A stretch of DNA of 31,682 bases, from IMG/VR virus record IMGVR_UViG_3300038360_000203, positions 1-31,682 of that record; one strand, written 5' to 3'. Of this stretch, positions 20,966-30,429 are shown piece after piece (within the stretch, counting starts at the first letter, position 1; each line of letters opens with the position of its first letter). Below the pieces are notes generated by a model, which ran no database searches, was not told where the DNA came from, and saw only the letters and a list, made by a program, of their open reading frames with translations. Position numbers and translations under genes: made by a program. This DNA comes from a virus.

Positions 20966-21682
20966 TTATATGCCGATTGATTCACAAAAAAGACCGCATT
21001 CGTCAACGATAGGCGGTTTATGGAGACCCCTTTCAGGCTCAAGCTCGTCTAAATAAACCCCTTTTATACAAGTAGCTTTAATTATTCTTTCCATCTTTGC
21101 CCTTGAATTGAAAACGCTTGGGAAGTCTTTTCTTATATGATTCCAATAACCCATGCCGCCCTTTACACAACCAATACAATTATTATTGTGGTATCCAAGA
21201 TCGTACATTTTTGGCCTTTTTATTCCGCTTGCCTTTAATATTTCATGCGCTTGTTTTTTTGGTATTTTCTTTTCGATCAATGGGCAGATATGCTCTTGGT
21301 CGGGCATTGTATTAAAAAGCCTATCGAGTCTTTCTTGTTCCTCGGAATCCATGCCCCAAACATATTTTAATAGTTCTGTTTGTTGTGTCTCCCAGTCTTT
21401 ACGAACTTGTTTTTTTAAAAATTTTGTGCAAGCTGCGCCCGTTGGCCCGTTAATATACCCACGCCCCCCTGAAGAAAAGCAAGCGTTTTCAACAGTCTTA
21501 TAATCGGATTGTAGTATGGTTATGGATTTCCCAAACCAAACCTCACAATCTTTGACAAAACGCATTGTGTCCTGGTGTTGGTCTTCTATATGTGTGTATA
21601 TAATCTCATCAATTTCAGGTATATATAATTTTGTTGCAACCGCACTTGAGGCACCTGCGCTAAACCATGCTATTGTTTTCAT
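20966..21682 (-). CDS. PP-loop ATPase, PAPS-reductase-like phage protein
   Basis: Residues 5-16 (AWFSAGASSAVA) form the PP-loop that binds ATP phosphates. The C-terminal part has GYHNNNCIGCVKGGMGYWNHIRKDFPSVF (about residues 163-191), a signature of a phage-borne branch of the phosphoadenosine phosphosulfate reductase / nucleotide alpha-hydrolase family, and PTGAACTKFLKKQVR (about 80-94). Length 238 is normal for this branch. These enzymes adenylate or act on a nucleotide-activated substrate; in phages the substrate is unknown, and involvement in nucleic-acid sulfur or base modification has been proposed for related proteins such as DndC. It neighbours a DNA methyltransferase, which makes DNA modification plausible but unproven. 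Confidence 0.75.
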   Translation of the reverse strand: MKTIAWFSAGASSAVATKLYIPEIDEIIYTHIEDQHQDTMRFVKDCEVWFGKSITILQSDYKTVENACFSSGGRGYINGPTGAACTKFLKKQVRKDWETQQTELLKYVWGMDSEEQERLDRLFNTMPDQEHICPLIEKKIPKKQAHEILKASGIKRPKMYDLGYHNNNCIGCVKGGMGYWNHIRKDFPSVFNSRAKMERIIKATCIKGVYLDELEPERGLHKPPIVDECGLFCESIGI

Positions 21683-21743: not shown

Positions 21744-21803
21744 AGCTAACGATTTAGCTCACTGGCACAGCGGTATCGTGTCCAGTGCAGCGCCTTGTTA
21801 TGT
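21744..21803 (-). other. attC-like site (integron cassette recombination site)
   Basis: In minus-strand orientation, over 60 bp, the order is: an R''-like box ACATAAC, a short spacer, GCTGCACTGG, a 16-base variable tip, CCAGTGAGC, a spacer and an R'-like box GTTAGCT. The two inner arms pair over nine bases with one extrahelical G in the first arm, as in integron attC sites. The boxes match the RYYYAAC and GTTRRRY consensus at six of seven positions each. The methyltransferase stop codon lies inside it, the usual relation between a cassette gene and its attC. Confidence 0.5.
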
Positions 21804-22377
21804 GACGCATTATGTATTCGCCCAATTCTGGCAAAATACAATTTCTTAAAACCTGCCGCTTGTTTTTGACCTTGGATTGTGCCACGACTTCATACCCGTC
21901 AAAATCTGATATTTTATTCTTGCTTCTTATTTTTGCCGGCTTAAAATCCATATGAGGCACAGTATCGCTTGACCAAAATAAATGACGATGCAGAATGAAT
22001 GACGGGTCAACCAAAGGCTTATAGTAAGGCTTTGTATTTTCAACGACCCATTGCCCCTTGAAATATGTTTTCAAGAAAATGATCTGTGAGTAAAGCGACA
22101 TATCCGGCATTATTGGGTCAAAGCCTTTTCCAATAACCCCGACATTGTGCCGATATTGTCCGTGACTTGGGCATGGTGGTGAAGCCCATATAAAATCATA
22201 TTCGGCATAGTGTTTTTCGAGATAATCCAGAGCATCACCGACAACAACCGTATCATCATGGTAAATAGCCTGATAGACTTCCGCTATATCAGGATCAATC
22301 TCAACAGCGGTCACTTGATGGCCTGACCATAGTTTACGATTCCCGCCAATACCGGCATATAAATTCAAAACTTTCAT
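21754..22377 (-). CDS. C5 cytosine DNA methyltransferase-like protein
   Basis: The product starts MKVLNLYAGIGGNRKLW (motif I, SAM binding), with AVEIDPD as motif II and WASPPCPSHGQ (about residues 66-76) holding the catalytic PC of motif IV. VVENTKPYYKP (motif VI, Glu-Asn) follows. At 207 residues it is shorter than free-standing restriction methyltransferases and matches a small phage family with a reduced target-recognition part. I choose the ATG at 22377 (AAGGA ahead) over an upstream in-frame ATG. The conserved end is RNCILPELGEYIM; the last 17 residues (RHITRRCTGHDTAVPVS) are encoded by the attC-like site and look unrelated to the enzyme. It probably protects phage DNA from host nucleases. 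Confidence 0.8.
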   Translation of the reverse strand: MKVLNLYAGIGGNRKLWSGHQVTAVEIDPDIAEVYQAIYHDDTVVVGDALDYLEKHYAEYDFIWASPPCPSHGQYRHNVGVIGKGFDPIMPDMSLYSQIIFLKTYFKGQWVVENTKPYYKPLVDPSFILHRHLFWSSDTVPHMDFKPAKIRSKNKISDFDGYEVVAQSKVKNKRQVLRNCILPELGEYIMRHITRRCTGHDTAVPVS

Positions 22378-22412
22378 AAATTCCTTTCCAATTAGACACA
22401 TAATAATGCAAT

Positions 22413-22586
22413 TCAGCGGCCCACACTGTAATGAAAGCCACATTTAGTACAGACTAAACCCTTACCGCCTGGTGCTGTGACCATGTAATGATTGCAAGGG
22501 TCCGTTGCAATTGCCTGATTACTCGGCCCTTTGCCAATTACAAACCCGATAATTGCACCCGATATAAAAATTAAAATATATTCCAT
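22413..22586 (-). CDS. Small membrane-anchored zinc-binding-type protein, 57 residues
   Basis: The product has one N-terminal transmembrane helix (MEYILIFISGAIIGFVIGKG) and a short soluble tail with CNHYM, VCTKCGFHYS. The Cys and His spacing (C..H, then C..C...H) suggests one zinc site. SD AAAGGA lies seven bases before the ATG. The neighbouring genes are spaced by short gaps and follow the same strand. It is below the length usually listed but has good coding character. The role is unknown; membrane-anchored zinc ribbons may act as small adaptors. Confidence 0.55.
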   Translation of the reverse strand: MEYILIFISGAIIGFVIGKGPSNQAIATDPCNHYMVTAPGGKGLVCTKCGFHYSVGR

Positions 22587-24330: not shown

Positions 24331-26088
24331 CTATGCTTCTACAAGCTGCTTAACTCCACTGCTCTCTTTTATGAACCTGGAAGCAGGATTTTTAATAAAT
24401 AATTCCTTATCTTTTTCAAACGGCCTGGTAGTCAAAATCAACTGATCTTCTGCCCTAGTAAAAGCGACATAAGCAAGCCGTCTTTCGTCCTCAAGCTCAT
24501 TTTTTTTGATTGACTGTTTACTAGGGAAGATTCCTTCATTTAACCCGGCAATGATCACCGTTGGCCATTCCAGGCCTTTGGCTGCATGAATCGTCATAAG
24601 CTGCAATTTTTCAGGATCATCTTTGATTTCATCCTGAAGGTCGAACGTGGCCAGCCAATTCAGATAATCGTCAATTGTTTTGTCGTAATTATCCAAGATC
24701 CAGACATAAAGAAAATCAAAAATTTCCCCGGCATCAAATCCAAACTCAACATCTTTCATCCAGTCAACAACCGTGCTGATATCTCCACGCTCGGAAGCTT
24801 TAAACCAATCCGGCCATGTTCCGGAATCATCTGTGTCAAGATCACACCATGCCTGAAAATGGCTTTTATATTCCGTGACAGCCTTGATCCGGATCTCTTT
24901 GTATTCATCGGTTGTAACACCTATATAATCCCGGATAAGAAGAAAGGAAAAATTATCAAATGGGTTAACTATCAGCTTCAGGAAAGCATGGAAACGCCGG
25001 AAGTTTTCAGACCGGGTAAGGGCTGTTTTTTTACCAATGTATTCATGTTTGATATGGGCTTCATCCAGGAGGCGGGAAAGTTTTATGAGCATGAAATGAT
25101 TACGGGCCAGGACAGCAACATTATGTCTATAAAAAGCCAGAAGACCGGCAATTCTACTTGAATCCATACTATCAACGGTCTCAATTTTTCTGCACATATC
25201 TTTTTTTGAAACCATAGTCTTTTCAAGCCGATTCCGGTTGTGCTCAATCAAATTATTGGCCGCTTCAACAATATTACCGCCTGACCTGTAATTAGTCTGC
25301 AGCCGGTAAATATCAAATAACCCCTGGTTTCTGACAAGATACTCAGGATCAGCCCCCCGGAAAGCATAAATAGACTGATCAATATCACCAACCGCAAACA
25401 ATGAAGCACCACAAAGTTTACAAAGCAGATTGACGATTTCCCACTGTAAAGGGTCATTGTCCTGGACTTCATCAACCAGGATATGCCTTAGGTCTAAAAA
25501 CTGTGTAATTTTGGGAATAAGCTCGATAAAAGTTGTAAGGATGGTCCCATATGTCAAAGCATTGTTTTCTGTGCACCTGACAAGAAAAGCGTCCATGAGT
25601 TCATTTGCTTCCAAGGTTTCAGGGTCACGGAAACCGACTGTGTAAAAAAGATCAAACGCCCGGTCAACGTCACGCTTTTTTAAGCCTTTCCAGGCCTTGC
25701 CGGTGTGATACCCCAATTCCATGGCAACATCTTTTAAAAGGAATTGTTCTTCCCATGAAGAGTACACCGTGATTTTCCCGGGCCTGAGCCCCACCAGTTC
25801 ACCAAACCTCTGCAAATAGTTTAAAGCGACTCCGTGCATGGTACCCATGGTCACATGAAAGGCTTTTGAACCTATGGCAGTTTCAAGGCGTTTCTGCATT
25901 TCCTGGCTGGCTTTGCGGGTAAAAGTGAAAGACAGGATCTCATAAGGGCTTACCTTGCAGGCTTCAACTAAATGCTGAATTCTTGCAGTAAGAACCCTCG
26001 TTTTACCACTGCCAGCTCCTGCAAGAACCAGGGCCTTATCAGAATCGGTTATAACGGCTGCTGATTGCTCAAAACTAAGTTCCATCAT
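24331..26088 (-). CDS. UvrD/PcrA-type superfamily 1 helicase
   Basis: The 585-residue product shows the SF1A helicase motifs. Q-motif FEQSAAV (residues 6-12) and Walker A AGAGSGKT (23-30) lie at the N-terminus; motif Ia is EILSFTFTRKASQEM. Motif II is HILVDEVQDND (about 204-214), and motif III reads LFAVGDIDQSIYAFRGADP. Motif V is IHAAKGLEWPTVIIAGLNEG (about 500-520), and motif VI is RRLAYVAFTRAEDQLIL. It is shorter than UvrD (about 720), so the 2B domain may be reduced. It unwinds DNA 3-prime to 5-prime in repair or recombination. It is coupled by ATGA to the split Rad50-like ATPase, suggesting joint work on DNA ends. Confidence 0.88.
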   Translation of the reverse strand: MMELSFEQSAAVITDSDKALVLAGAGSGKTRVLTARIQHLVEACKVSPYEILSFTFTRKASQEMQKRLETAIGSKAFHVTMGTMHGVALNYLQRFGELVGLRPGKITVYSSWEEQFLLKDVAMELGYHTGKAWKGLKKRDVDRAFDLFYTVGFRDPETLEANELMDAFLVRCTENNALTYGTILTTFIELIPKITQFLDLRHILVDEVQDNDPLQWEIVNLLCKLCGASLFAVGDIDQSIYAFRGADPEYLVRNQGLFDIYRLQTNYRSGGNIVEAANNLIEHNRNRLEKTMVSKKDMCRKIETVDSMDSSRIAGLLAFYRHNVAVLARNHFMLIKLSRLLDEAHIKHEYIGKKTALTRSENFRRFHAFLKLIVNPFDNFSFLLIRDYIGVTTDEYKEIRIKAVTEYKSHFQAWCDLDTDDSGTWPDWFKASERGDISTVVDWMKDVEFGFDAGEIFDFLYVWILDNYDKTIDDYLNWLATFDLQDEIKDDPEKLQLMTIHAAKGLEWPTVIIAGLNEGIFPSKQSIKKNELEDERRLAYVAFTRAEDQLILTTRPFEKDKELFIKNPASRFIKESSGVKQLVEA

Positions 26089-26648
26089 GCCGCCACCTCC
26101 TCAAGTTCAATTTTAACAAATGGTGACGGCACATTTCCCACAGGGTGACAGGTATTTATGATCACCTGTTTTTCAACCTTGGCCAGATCTTCAAGGGCTG
26201 CGGCCATATGATCACTATCAAGCTCTGCAGCTTCCAGGACTATAATATCTGCATCCAGGACATGAGCCAGTGCAGTATCAAATATTTGTTTTTGGCAACC
26301 TGAAAGGCCATTATATGGAGTTGTTTTTCCGTCTTCATCTTCCCAACCGATCACAAGACCATCCACGCAATCAAAAACAGCATTTCCAACCGGAAGAATG
26401 GCGTTAAGTTTTTCAACTATCTTCTTAGCTGAATCGGCAACCGCATCATTCTTTTTTTTGATCAGATCCTTTTTGTCTTTTTTTGCCTTTACCAGATCTT
26501 TTTTAATGGTTGCCCGTTCCTGATTGGTCGTTTCAATCGTTTCATTAATGCCCTGGATTTTCAAAAAAACGGCCTCATTTTTTCTAAGCCCTTGGCCTTT
26601 TGCAATTAACCCGTCTATTTGGTCCTGCATCATTTTAATATCACTCAT
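26085..26648 (-). CDS. C-terminal half of a split SMC/Rad50-like ATPase
   Basis: The 187-residue product begins with a helical coiled-coil arm (residues 1-80, rich in Lys and Asp) and continues with an ABC-type C-terminal lobe. Signature LSGCQKQ lies at 115-121, a Walker B-like strand ADIIVLEAAEL at about 133-143, and H-loop INTCHP at about 164-169. There is no Walker A. The preceding gene supplies exactly what is missing. The Walker B strand has Glu where Asp is usual and Ala where the catalytic Glu is expected, so hydrolysis may be weak or use another residue. ATGA overlap with strong GGAGGT SD couples it to its partner. Confidence 0.7.
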   Translation of the reverse strand: MSDIKMMQDQIDGLIAKGQGLRKNEAVFLKIQGINETIETTNQERATIKKDLVKAKKDKKDLIKKKNDAVADSAKKIVEKLNAILPVGNAVFDCVDGLVIGWEDEDGKTTPYNGLSGCQKQIFDTALAHVLDADIIVLEAAELDSDHMAAALEDLAKVEKQVIINTCHPVGNVPSPFVKIELEEVAA

Positions 26649-27676
26649 GCCGCCACCTCCTTTTTGAATTTTTTAAGCTCCTGTTTTGCAATGATGGCCG
26701 CTGCACAAATCTGGCAACCGGAATTATTGAGAGCGTCAAGAATTTTCTGGATAGAAACAACCGGGTCATGCTCCTGAAGGTCGTCAAAAGGACCAGGTTT
26801 ACCAGCTGCAAAATCATGAATTCTCTGATTACCGGGAGTGGATGCCTTAAAATTCTCATTTATCATGGGTGGATGACCACCATCAAAAGACGGATCTGGT
26901 TTTGATGGATGAAAGTCCTCAGCATTATCAGCCATAATTCTATCAAATTTTTCCTGAGATTCTTTTTTTTGCTCGGCCTTTGCTTTTTCCGCTGCATCAG
27001 TTTTGGCCTGCTCAATCTCAACCTGTTTTAAATTCTCCTGTGCTTCCTTGACCTGGGTAATGACCTTTTCAATATCTGCCCGAACCTCTGCCAGGGTCCC
27101 GGCAGGTAATTCAACCTCACTCTTACTTACTGTCAGGCGTTTGATGGTAGACACTGCAGATGTTTCTTTTTTCTGAAGTTCGTTAACGGTCTTTTTCGCC
27201 TTGTCAATTTGAGTTTCAAGATTTTTCAGGTTGGCCTTTGGCGGGAAAAGATCAAAAAGACAATCAATTTTTTTCTGATCAGACTTGGCCATAAAATCAC
27301 CAACATCAATAATTTTAGGATTACCGGCCTTATATAATTCCAAGGCGAAATCCTGGGCAGAATATTTTTTCTTGTTCACTCGTAGCCGTTGACTGACACT
27401 ACCCTCTTCAGATCGGGAAAGATGGCGTTCAAACTCGACACCATTGCAGATTACAGCCGTGGTTAATGTGTTACCCTGGCCGAAATCATTGAGGATATCA
27501 GCCGGTTTTTTATTGGTTTTTACAGCAAAAGGAATATAGCCAAGGATAGTTAAAGCAATTGCCGCTGCCCGGGTAGACTTCCCGGACCTGTTTTTACCAA
27601 AAAAAAGGGTTTTAGGGTGAATATCTTCGTTGATATCGAAACCCTTAAAACCCTTGGTTTTTATATGAGTTATCAT
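26645..27676 (-). CDS. N-terminal half of a split SMC/Rad50-like ATPase with zinc-hook-like CxxC
   Basis: The 343-residue product starts with a Rad50/RecF-type ABC head: beta strand, then FFGKNRSGKST (residues 25-35, Walker A), AIALTILGYIPF. A long coiled coil follows from about residue 140 to 240 (ETQIDKAKKTVNELQKKE, AQENLKQVEIEQAKTDAAEKA). Near the end lies SGCQICAAAI (about residues 319-328), a CxxC in the place and form of the Rad50 zinc hook, and then only 19 more residues. The signature and Walker B lobe are in the next gene. Together they would rebuild a head, an arm, a hook and the second arm. Role: DNA-end or recombination work with the neighbouring annealing-type protein and helicase. 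SD AGGAGGT precedes the ATG. Confidence 0.75.
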   Translation of the reverse strand: MITHIKTKGFKGFDINEDIHPKTLFFGKNRSGKSTRAAAIALTILGYIPFAVKTNKKPADILNDFGQGNTLTTAVICNGVEFERHLSRSEEGSVSQRLRVNKKKYSAQDFALELYKAGNPKIIDVGDFMAKSDQKKIDCLFDLFPPKANLKNLETQIDKAKKTVNELQKKETSAVSTIKRLTVSKSEVELPAGTLAEVRADIEKVITQVKEAQENLKQVEIEQAKTDAAEKAKAEQKKESQEKFDRIMADNAEDFHPSKPDPSFDGGHPPMINENFKASTPGNQRIHDFAAGKPGPFDDLQEHDPVVSIQKILDALNNSGCQICAAAIIAKQELKKFKKEVAA

Positions 27677-27735: not shown

Positions 27736-28959
27736 CTATTCAGCCGCCTGTGTATCAAGAATCGAGCTTATCTTCTTGCAGACATCAACCGCCTGGGCAT
27801 CGTCCAGCAGTTCAGGCAGGATGTTTTCAAGATCGATTGACAAGCAGGCCTCTTTGTATTCTTCCGGGAATTGCTCTGCCAGGGTGACCGTCTGCATGAC
27901 TTCCTTTGAAAGATCCTGTGGTGGTTCCTGTTCCTTTTTTTCTTCCTGGGCAGGTCTTTTAACTTCCGGCTGGTCTTCAGGATCTGTGGCATCTTCCAGG
28001 GCTTGAAAGTTTTCATCGTCTGAAGCTCGTTCAAGTCCCTTTTTGATATCAAGTTGTTTGATTTTATTATCACCAAAACCGGAAGAATCACCTTCAATTA
28101 TACCGGCAACACGGTCCTGAAGCTGTGAATATTGAGTTGCATCCCATTTAACCACATTATTGCCGGTTGGCCTCCATGCAAGGACAGGAATAGTCCATTG
28201 ATTACCAGGGGCTTTTTGCAGACCGGAAAGATGTTTCAAGGCGTTTCTTTTGGCAAAAGTTTGGGCAAAATCCATGGCCTTTTTTTCACGGTTCAGGATA
28301 GTTGAATACCATCCTATGACTTCATCATGGGAAGTGTTCACCCAAAGCTTTGTTGATTCATCAAACGGGTATGATGCCCATGTATGATTTCCTTTTGATT
28401 TTTCAGGTTCAACATTTGCAGGGAGAAGTTTAAAGGCCTGGGGTGTTTTCTTGGCTTTGGCAAGTAAATCAATCATCCGGTAAGAAGGAGTATCAAAAAT
28501 GGTGGTCCAGTCCGACACCTGGGGAATGCCCATGGATGAAAACTTAAAAGCAACCGCCCTGGCATGAACCGCTAAAATACGCCTGTTATCCGGATCACGT
28601 TCCGCATAAGGATTTGGAAACCATTGGGTGCCAACAAGAACTTCCTTGGGAAAAATAACACTGGTACCGGTCTTTTCTGCCCAAACCTCGTACCCCTGAG
28701 CAGACATTACAAATGGACCATTATAGACTGGTTGGATCAATGTTCCTTCGTTTGCCGAAAGCGTCAAAGCGCTCTTAAAAGCTTTGATCTGCCCTTCTCC
28801 GTCCGTAAGCACAAAGGCCTCGTCAACGCCAAGGACAGCAATATTTTTTCTTTGGATTGCTGTCACGTAATCAAGTACGGCCTTTGCTTCAGGCGTTTTC
28901 ATTTCTTCAAGCGTGATAAGGGCATTTTCTACCTTTACCGCTGGTGTATTGGGTGTCAT
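27736..28959 (-). CDS. Phage recombination-type protein, possible single-strand annealing protein
   Basis: The 407-residue product has a mixed N-terminal half and a segment around residues 95-160 (FPNPYAERDPDNRRILAVHARAVAF, DTPSYRMIDLLAKAKKTPQAF). Then, about 175-245, comes SYPFDESTKLWVNTSHDEVIGWYS followed by KKAMDFAQTFAKRNALKHLSG. The pattern of basic strands, an aromatic surface and a final A.TFAKRNALK helix recalls phage annealing recombinases, and it stands next to the split Rad50-like ATPase and a UvrD helicase. The last 100 residues are acidic and low-complexity, then helical. No sure family match is visible by eye, so the annealing role is an inference from place and pattern. Start by ATGA overlap with the Cys-rich gene. 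Confidence 0.4.
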   Translation of the reverse strand: MTPNTPAVKVENALITLEEMKTPEAKAVLDYVTAIQRKNIAVLGVDEAFVLTDGEGQIKAFKSALTLSANEGTLIQPVYNGPFVMSAQGYEVWAEKTGTSVIFPKEVLVGTQWFPNPYAERDPDNRRILAVHARAVAFKFSSMGIPQVSDWTTIFDTPSYRMIDLLAKAKKTPQAFKLLPANVEPEKSKGNHTWASYPFDESTKLWVNTSHDEVIGWYSTILNREKKAMDFAQTFAKRNALKHLSGLQKAPGNQWTIPVLAWRPTGNNVVKWDATQYSQLQDRVAGIIEGDSSGFGDNKIKQLDIKKGLERASDDENFQALEDATDPEDQPEVKRPAQEEKKEQEPPQDLSKEVMQTVTLAEQFPEEYKEACLSIDLENILPELLDDAQAVDVCKKISSILDTQAAE

Positions 28960-29814: not shown

Positions 29815-30312
29815 TTAAACAATCATCCAATCATCAGCCAGCATGTCAGTTTGACTTGCCAGCCAGCCAGGTAGCCATTTTTTATCAGCTGTCCACATTG
29901 CGATATAAGGAAGTGTTACAAGTGGCGTGTCTTCACCGATCCATTTTGCAGTACGGTCATTTACTTTTCTTTCTGTCCCCTGGGTGGTGAATGGGGGAAG
30001 TGTCATTCCAGACATGAGAACAACCCACATATCTTTTCCGTTCCAACCTGCCCGGGCAACTTTTTTTCCGAGCTTAAGGGCTTCAATCGCCAAGCCAAAA
30101 TTCATTGCATTGCAAGGCCTGTAAGCTTTAAAAGCTTCAGCAGGGCTCCATGATACATACCCGTCTTCATAAACAACCATGTGGCCTGGTCTTTCAGGAT
30201 CTTCATCAGGGGGGATTGTCCAGCCCCTGTGAGAATTGTAGCCACCAAGACTCATTGGAGCTGCCTTGATAATCTTTGTCCCAATAAATTCTTGCATTTC
30301 TTGTTCATCCAT
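29815..30312 (-). CDS. tad2: Tad2-like anti-Thoeris protein (DUF2829) with extra N-terminal domain
   Basis: The C-terminal hundred residues match DUF2829: MNFGLAIEALKLGKKVARAGWNGKDMWVVLM, then TPLVTLPYIAMWTADKKWLPGWLASQTDMLADDW. This is the family of Tad2, which binds the Thoeris immune signal (a cyclic ADP-ribose isomer) and so blocks the defence. An extra N-terminal part (IKAAPMSLGGYN, GWTIPPDEDPERPGHMVVYEDGYVSWSPAEAF) is a separate small domain common in phage proteins. I start at the ATG at 30312, with AGGA eight bases ahead; the frame is open to 30357 and beyond. The place among early genes suits an anti-defence role. Not shown: that ligand-binding residues are all kept. Confidence 0.75.
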   Translation of the reverse strand: MDEQEMQEFIGTKIIKAAPMSLGGYNSHRGWTIPPDEDPERPGHMVVYEDGYVSWSPAEAFKAYRPCNAMNFGLAIEALKLGKKVARAGWNGKDMWVVLMSGMTLPPFTTQGTERKVNDRTAKWIGEDTPLVTLPYIAMWTADKKWLPGWLASQTDMLADDWMIV

Positions 30313-30429
30313 ACGCTTAATCCTTTCTTTAAAGTTATTGCCTCTTAACCCATCCACCCTTTCAGCTCTTTGGTTTCCCTTTGGGTCCGTTTGGCTTTTC
30401 GGTGTGGCCGAGTAATATTTTTGTATTAC

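Follow-up and report, generated by a model that had tools for sequence, protein, structure and literature searches.

Genes A and B of a viral operon probably encode the two halves of one Rad50/SbcC-like ATPase, which would act as a two-chain DNA clamp with a detached hook. The window, that is, the whole stretch of 31,682 bases that was analysed (IMG/VR virus record IMGVR_UViG_3300038360_000203), carries P22-like portal, coat and tail-accessory genes along with a head scaffold gene, and A and B lie in it between the gene of an upstream protein belonging to phrog_32428 and that of a UvrD-like helicase (Table 1). The two-gene form is real, goes beyond a chance arrangement and is widely inherited, and an A-B heterodimer is well supported by the anatomy of the two proteins and by their homology.

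Table 1 Features of the split ATPase module, with positions in the window
Feature	Position	Strand	Basis or remark
Helicase, UvrD/Rep-like, 585 aa, conserved module member	24331-26088	-	3' of gene B
Gene B, 187 aa, C-lobe of the ATPase preceded by an arm helix	26085-26648	-	
H-loop histidine H168 of TCH (B residues 166-168)	26145-26147	-	H in 25/30
Atypical Walker B / D-loop strand IIVLEAAELD, B residues 135-144	26217-26246	-	
ABC signature motif LSGCQ, B residues 115-119	26292-26306	-	
B arm helix, 83 residues, residues 2-84	26397-26645	-	AlphaFold2, mean pLDDT 91
Gene A, 343 aa, N-lobe of the Rad50/SMC-type ATPase followed by arm helices, tether and CxxC hairpin	26645-27676	-	
A C-terminal helix-turn-helix hairpin, residues 305-318 and 325-342, confident	26651-26764	-	AlphaFold2 model
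Shine-Dalgarno AAGGAGGT of gene B, strong, inside the end of gene A	26655-26662	-	just 5' of the B ATG
CQIC, zinc-hook-like Cys pair, A residues 321-324	26705-26716	-	alignment
A linker, disordered and variable, residues 253-304, pLDDT 41-63 in 10-residue blocks	26765-26920	-	AlphaFold2 and alignment
A arm helix 2, residues 195-252	26921-27094	-	AlphaFold2 model
A arm helix 1, residues 150-187	27116-27229	-	AlphaFold2 model
Walker A motif GKNRSGKS, A residues 27-34	27575-27598	-	ORF translation
Upstream protein, 407 aa, phrog_32428, conserved module member	27736-28959	-	

Translation of the open reading frames bears out the layout described in an earlier, sequence-only reading of this DNA: A holds Walker A, an arm and a CQIC motif exactly 19 residues from its end, and B opens with an arm followed by the signature and the H-loop, an order also seen in its AlphaFold2 model. 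The ATGA overlap that had been noted is present, spanning four bases between A and B, and B overlaps the helicase gene in the same way. Across 30 relatives, G32 and K33 of Walker A are invariant, and the break between the two arm helices of A, LPAGTLAE (188-194), is among the most conserved stretches of the protein. In B, where mean column identity is 43-49%, L115, S116, G117, E139 and E142 are invariant in 30 proteins; the signature LSGCQ of the window is a variant of the LSGG found in 28 of 30 relatives.

Profile and structure comparisons give matches to both lobes of the head, supporting the proposal that a Rad50/SMC-type ATPase is encoded here by two genes. The B profile matches the Rad50 C-lobe 3qkr_B (E 1e-6) and SMC3 (4e-8) over coil, signature, Walker B and H-loop, and also 1ii8_B, and the A profile has a weak sequence match to the Rad50 N-lobe. 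Foldseek pairs the A model with the N-lobe chains of SMC and Rad50 structures (5h66_A, 1ii8_A, 3qkr_A) and the B model with the C-lobe 5h66_B and with Rad50 and SMC heads, with TM-scores that stay mostly at a modest 0.2-0.6 owing to differences in the arms and tails. The single-chain models of A and B contain only lobes, helices and the small hairpin, with no SMC globular hinge domain. Ordinarily, a Rad50, SbcC or SMC protein is made as one chain. The heads in 1II8, 1F2T and 5H66 nevertheless have their N- and C-lobes on separate chains, which shows that a split head is able to fold and assemble; we take these two-chain heads to have been engineered for structural work. A and B would likewise form one head from two chains, differing from these constructs in being natural and in carrying a hook hairpin. 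Nature thus appears to use a split otherwise known from laboratory constructs, and no description of a naturally split Rad50 was found in the literature searched, which lay mostly outside subscription journals.

Homologues in which the two parts are fused, whose existence the sequence-only reading had suggested checking, were found in seven single genes (L047-L053, 556-726 aa), with the A part N-terminal and the B part C-terminal (A profile scan). In profile-profile alignments (hhalign), A aligns with L049/L050 at 1.8e-25, and B with L047 at 2.3e-24 and with L049/L050 at 9.7e-9. L049 and L050 belong to phrog_32642, which window A itself matches at 4.9e-9, and also match phrog_77 (SbcC-like). 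Together with L047, which was also found in a second contig, they are flanked by homologues of the upstream protein and helicase of the window, in the same order. The phrog_32642 ATPase resembles A/B in its operon place, with a phrog_32428 protein on one side and a UvrD-like helicase on the other, in sharing both end lobes and in having a mid-chain Cys pair, but it is a single gene of more than 700 aa with longer arms, and its Cys pair lies in the centre of the coil rather than on a C-terminal tether as in A.

The fused proteins also indicate where and in which direction the gene was divided. Six of the seven carry a Cys pair near mid-chain, as CxxC in L052 and L053 and as C-x6-C or C-x7-C in L048-L051, and L047 has none; conservation of the motif in single-gene homologues, the lack of which would by the earlier reading have counted against it, is therefore seen for a Cys pair in most of them and for CxxC itself in two. 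This places the break of the split family shortly after the hook position, so that the earlier placement of the break at the hook holds in this respect, but not as an in-line junction of the two arms, since the AlphaFold2 hairpin lies beyond a disordered linker. In a tree built from both lobes combined, five fused proteins make up one side with 100/100 support, and all 33 split pairs lie on the other side together with L047 and L052, whose placement is unsure on account of their long branches; single-lobe trees disagree on the positions of these two and were not relied on. L047 is one of the two fused proteins nearest the split ones. The tree test does not reject one origin for the split (p-AU 0.232). 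Given that Rad50 and SMC proteins are single-chain as a general rule, the simpler course is for a fused ancestor to have undergone fission, with re-fusion or a second fission possible. An ancestral split, one of two origins considered earlier, is accordingly not favoured by the single-chain state of Rad50/SMC and of the fused relatives or by the grouping of five of the latter.

The other origin considered earlier, a fission confined to one phage lineage, does not fit the spread of the pair. A followed by B as separate genes occurs at 33 loci, the window included, in IMG/VR contigs and in Thermodesulfobacteriota genomes, the bacterial relatives being found in sulfate reducers; this count is of complete loci, L004 and L045 having A at a contig end and L034 having B near one. 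The split pairs are nearly always accompanied by the phrog_32428 protein and the UvrD-like helicase. Two of the loci are in named genomes, a Desulfobacteraceae MAG (L054) and Solidesulfovibrio alcoholivorans DSM 5433 (L055). In samples of the two classes, 3 of 291 and 4 of 247 genomes had matches that we accept as real, counts that leave out the short P-loop matches making up most of those listed. Such a low frequency fits occasional prophages. Relatives were reached through scans with the upstream gene and the helicase and then through alignments, as single-protein scans with A and B (P0001, P0002) gave no relatives and one alignment (A2) was too divergent for a genome scan. Named phages gave no matches to A, B or the upstream protein, nor to the A protein of L013 or the fused L047 and L049.

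In the explanation that we prefer, an old gene fission just past the hook position would have separated A from B, A giving the Walker A lobe and one arm, and B contributing the second arm along with the lobe that carries the signature and H-loop. The two chains would pair by their arms, running antiparallel, and through a common head. Two heterodimers would then come together to enclose two ATP molecules and clamp DNA, each signature lying opposite the Walker A of the partner heterodimer. The CxxC hairpin tethered to A would be the detached hook, which could join two heterodimers via zinc. A/B share with Rad50/SbcC the ABC-type head, arms, a CxxC hook-like hairpin, the signature and the H-loop, and differ in having two chains, short arms (~80-100 aa), a tethered hairpin, no Mre11/SbcD in the module and no DE pair. 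Points against a clamp of this kind are the disordered linker, the missing module nuclease and DE pair, and L047 and L007, which do without the Cys pair. A stably inherited natural split indicates that the covalent link at the hook end is dispensable, and since A and B are small (343 and 187 aa) they are handy for biochemistry and permit testing of what the hook and the connection of the arms contribute.

The putative zinc hook on A is moderately supported. The hairpin is far better conserved than the linker that precedes it (mean entropy 1.84 versus 2.87 bits), the linker being ~50 aa in the window and of differing length among relatives. Neither this linker nor the absence of a DE pair in B figured in the sequence-only reading. 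Its consensus is S[IL]..ILD.M..AGC..CAA.LVAK.ELKK, and AlphaFold2 places C321 and C324 in its turn. Among 30 A proteins the C321 column holds cysteine in 29 of 29 and the C324 column in 29 of 30, while 44 other cysteines scatter; the spacing in split A proteins is mostly CxxC, with CxxxC in L041, L042 and L059, and the pair has been lost in the split L007. Among the Pfam matches listed for window A there is no zinc-hook model. With the head still composite, the hairpin could instead be a small tethered module that binds the helicase or the upstream protein, or a structural zinc/redox switch, rather than a dimerising hook, a reading to which we grant a substantial chance that falls somewhat short of even. 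It would account for the disordered linker, differing in length among relatives, that separates the hairpin from the arm, for the conservation of I312, K331 and E333 beyond the cysteines, and for L007 and L047 managing without the pair; Rad50 hooks, moreover, are in line with the arms and the A hairpin is not. Weighing against it, the Cys pair near mid-chain in six of seven fused relatives sits at the location of a hook, and a Cys pair in a hairpin turn resembles a hook apex.

The hairpin was also matched on its own in G296 (C12:74437-74532 and C16:2-97), in 38-residue open frames of which one is at a contig edge; these are probably assembly fragments.

Rad50/SMC proteins usually have hhhhDE ahead of the D-loop. 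The catalytic region of B has no DE pair and reads hhh[LVIYKQ]-E-x-[AGS]-E-x-[DG], with [LVIYKQ]-E-x-[AGS]-E in 30 of 30 proteins. The fused L049 has DE, whereas N or A occupies the place of the catalytic Glu in several fused relatives. Where the residue following the Walker B acid is A or N (most split B proteins, L047, L048, L050 and L053), a Glu is found at the third position past that acid, and where the following residue is acidic (L049, L051 and L052) no Glu is found at that position. As a lead from the alignment, which is ambiguous by one residue here, the catalytic glutamate of B may be displaced or lost. The same pattern in 30 B proteins, with N or A for the catalytic Glu in several fused ones, would suit an SMC-like structural clamp that binds ATP and hydrolyses it slowly or not at all, as opposed to a Rad50-type DNA-end machine, and SMC heads score equally with Rad50 heads. 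We nevertheless hold such a clamp to be unlikely, as conservation extends to Walker A, the signature and, for the most part, the H-loop, and the invariant E142 could take over catalysis. Less likely again is a Rad50/SMC-type ring designed with an open far end, in which the arms would be unjoined at the hook, the tethered CxxC would serve as a zinc/redox latch of a DNA entry gate and a displaced catalytic E142 would alter the ATP cycle.

For the two-chain clamp with a detached hook, the most likely role would be in the processing of phage DNA ends, in recombination or in restarting replication. A role on DNA is suggested by the operon neighbours, namely the UvrD-like helicase, the conserved upstream protein and, in the window, the gene of a DnaD-like helicase loader (replication loader) that the module precedes; the exact role is weakly supported. 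Across 31 loci compared, the upstream protein recurs in 27, the A/B group likewise in 27 and the helicase in 29, and no other gene is widely shared. The upstream protein, though strongly conserved alongside the module, has no family match in Pfam, PDB or NCBIfam, and its lack of a Pfam, PDB or lambda Bet match gives no support to an identity as a RecT/Bet-type annealing protein (SSAP). No Mre11/SbcD-like nuclease is among the genes common to the 31 loci, a count that covers module loci rather than host genes, and A/B may use a host-encoded Mre11/SbcD partner.

An ABC-type ATPase gene adjoining a UvrD helicase also recalls the GajA-GajB pair of Gabija, and the helicase matches GajB models at E 1e-70 and the fused relatives match LmuB weakly at E 1e-12 (PADLOC). 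A Gabija/Lamassu-type defence or counter-defence module is nonetheless very improbable, because GajB models match UvrD helicases generally, neither A nor B has a Toprim nuclease domain (Pfam, models), no effector gene is conserved, and the module stands in a phage replication context, ahead of the DnaD-like loader in the window. The split of the ATPase is a further difference from Gabija.

The junction itself varies between loci. Gene order is fixed, but the distance from A to B in most loci lies anywhere between -11 and +18 nt; B is preceded by a Shine-Dalgarno sequence in most, and in L006 the two genes are separated by ~1.15 kb with other ORFs. The variation in spacing and the L006 insertion show translational coupling to be common, not essential. 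Equimolar synthesis of the two products, which the earlier reading expected from the ATGA overlap, may accompany it. Although the four-base frame overlap and the CAAAAAG run shortly before it, at which the frames would be joined by a -1 shift, might suggest that a single gene was recently frameshifted or wrongly sequenced, or that frameshifting is programmed, we regard these as practically discounted and, with a pseudogene, ruled out by the 33 split loci, the Shine-Dalgarno of its own that B has in most of them, the variable spacing and the L006 insertion.

A and B both terminate in EVAA (26645-26664 and 26085-26104 in the window), as their last codons also contain the Shine-Dalgarno sequence and the start of the gene that follows (GGAGGTGGCGGCATGA). 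Elsewhere in the window, a gene near the module at 29815-30357 encodes a protein in which Pfam recognises a domain like Tad2 (Thoeris anti-defence 2; E 4.5e-25), and a cytosine-5 DNA methylase-like gene of 229 aa, short for its family, lies at 21754-22443. A PAPS-reductase-like gene is also found in the window, at 20966-21682, and the stretch between A and B in L006 (8124-9278) holds a PAPS-reductase-like ORF, recognised by eye, and a small ORF.
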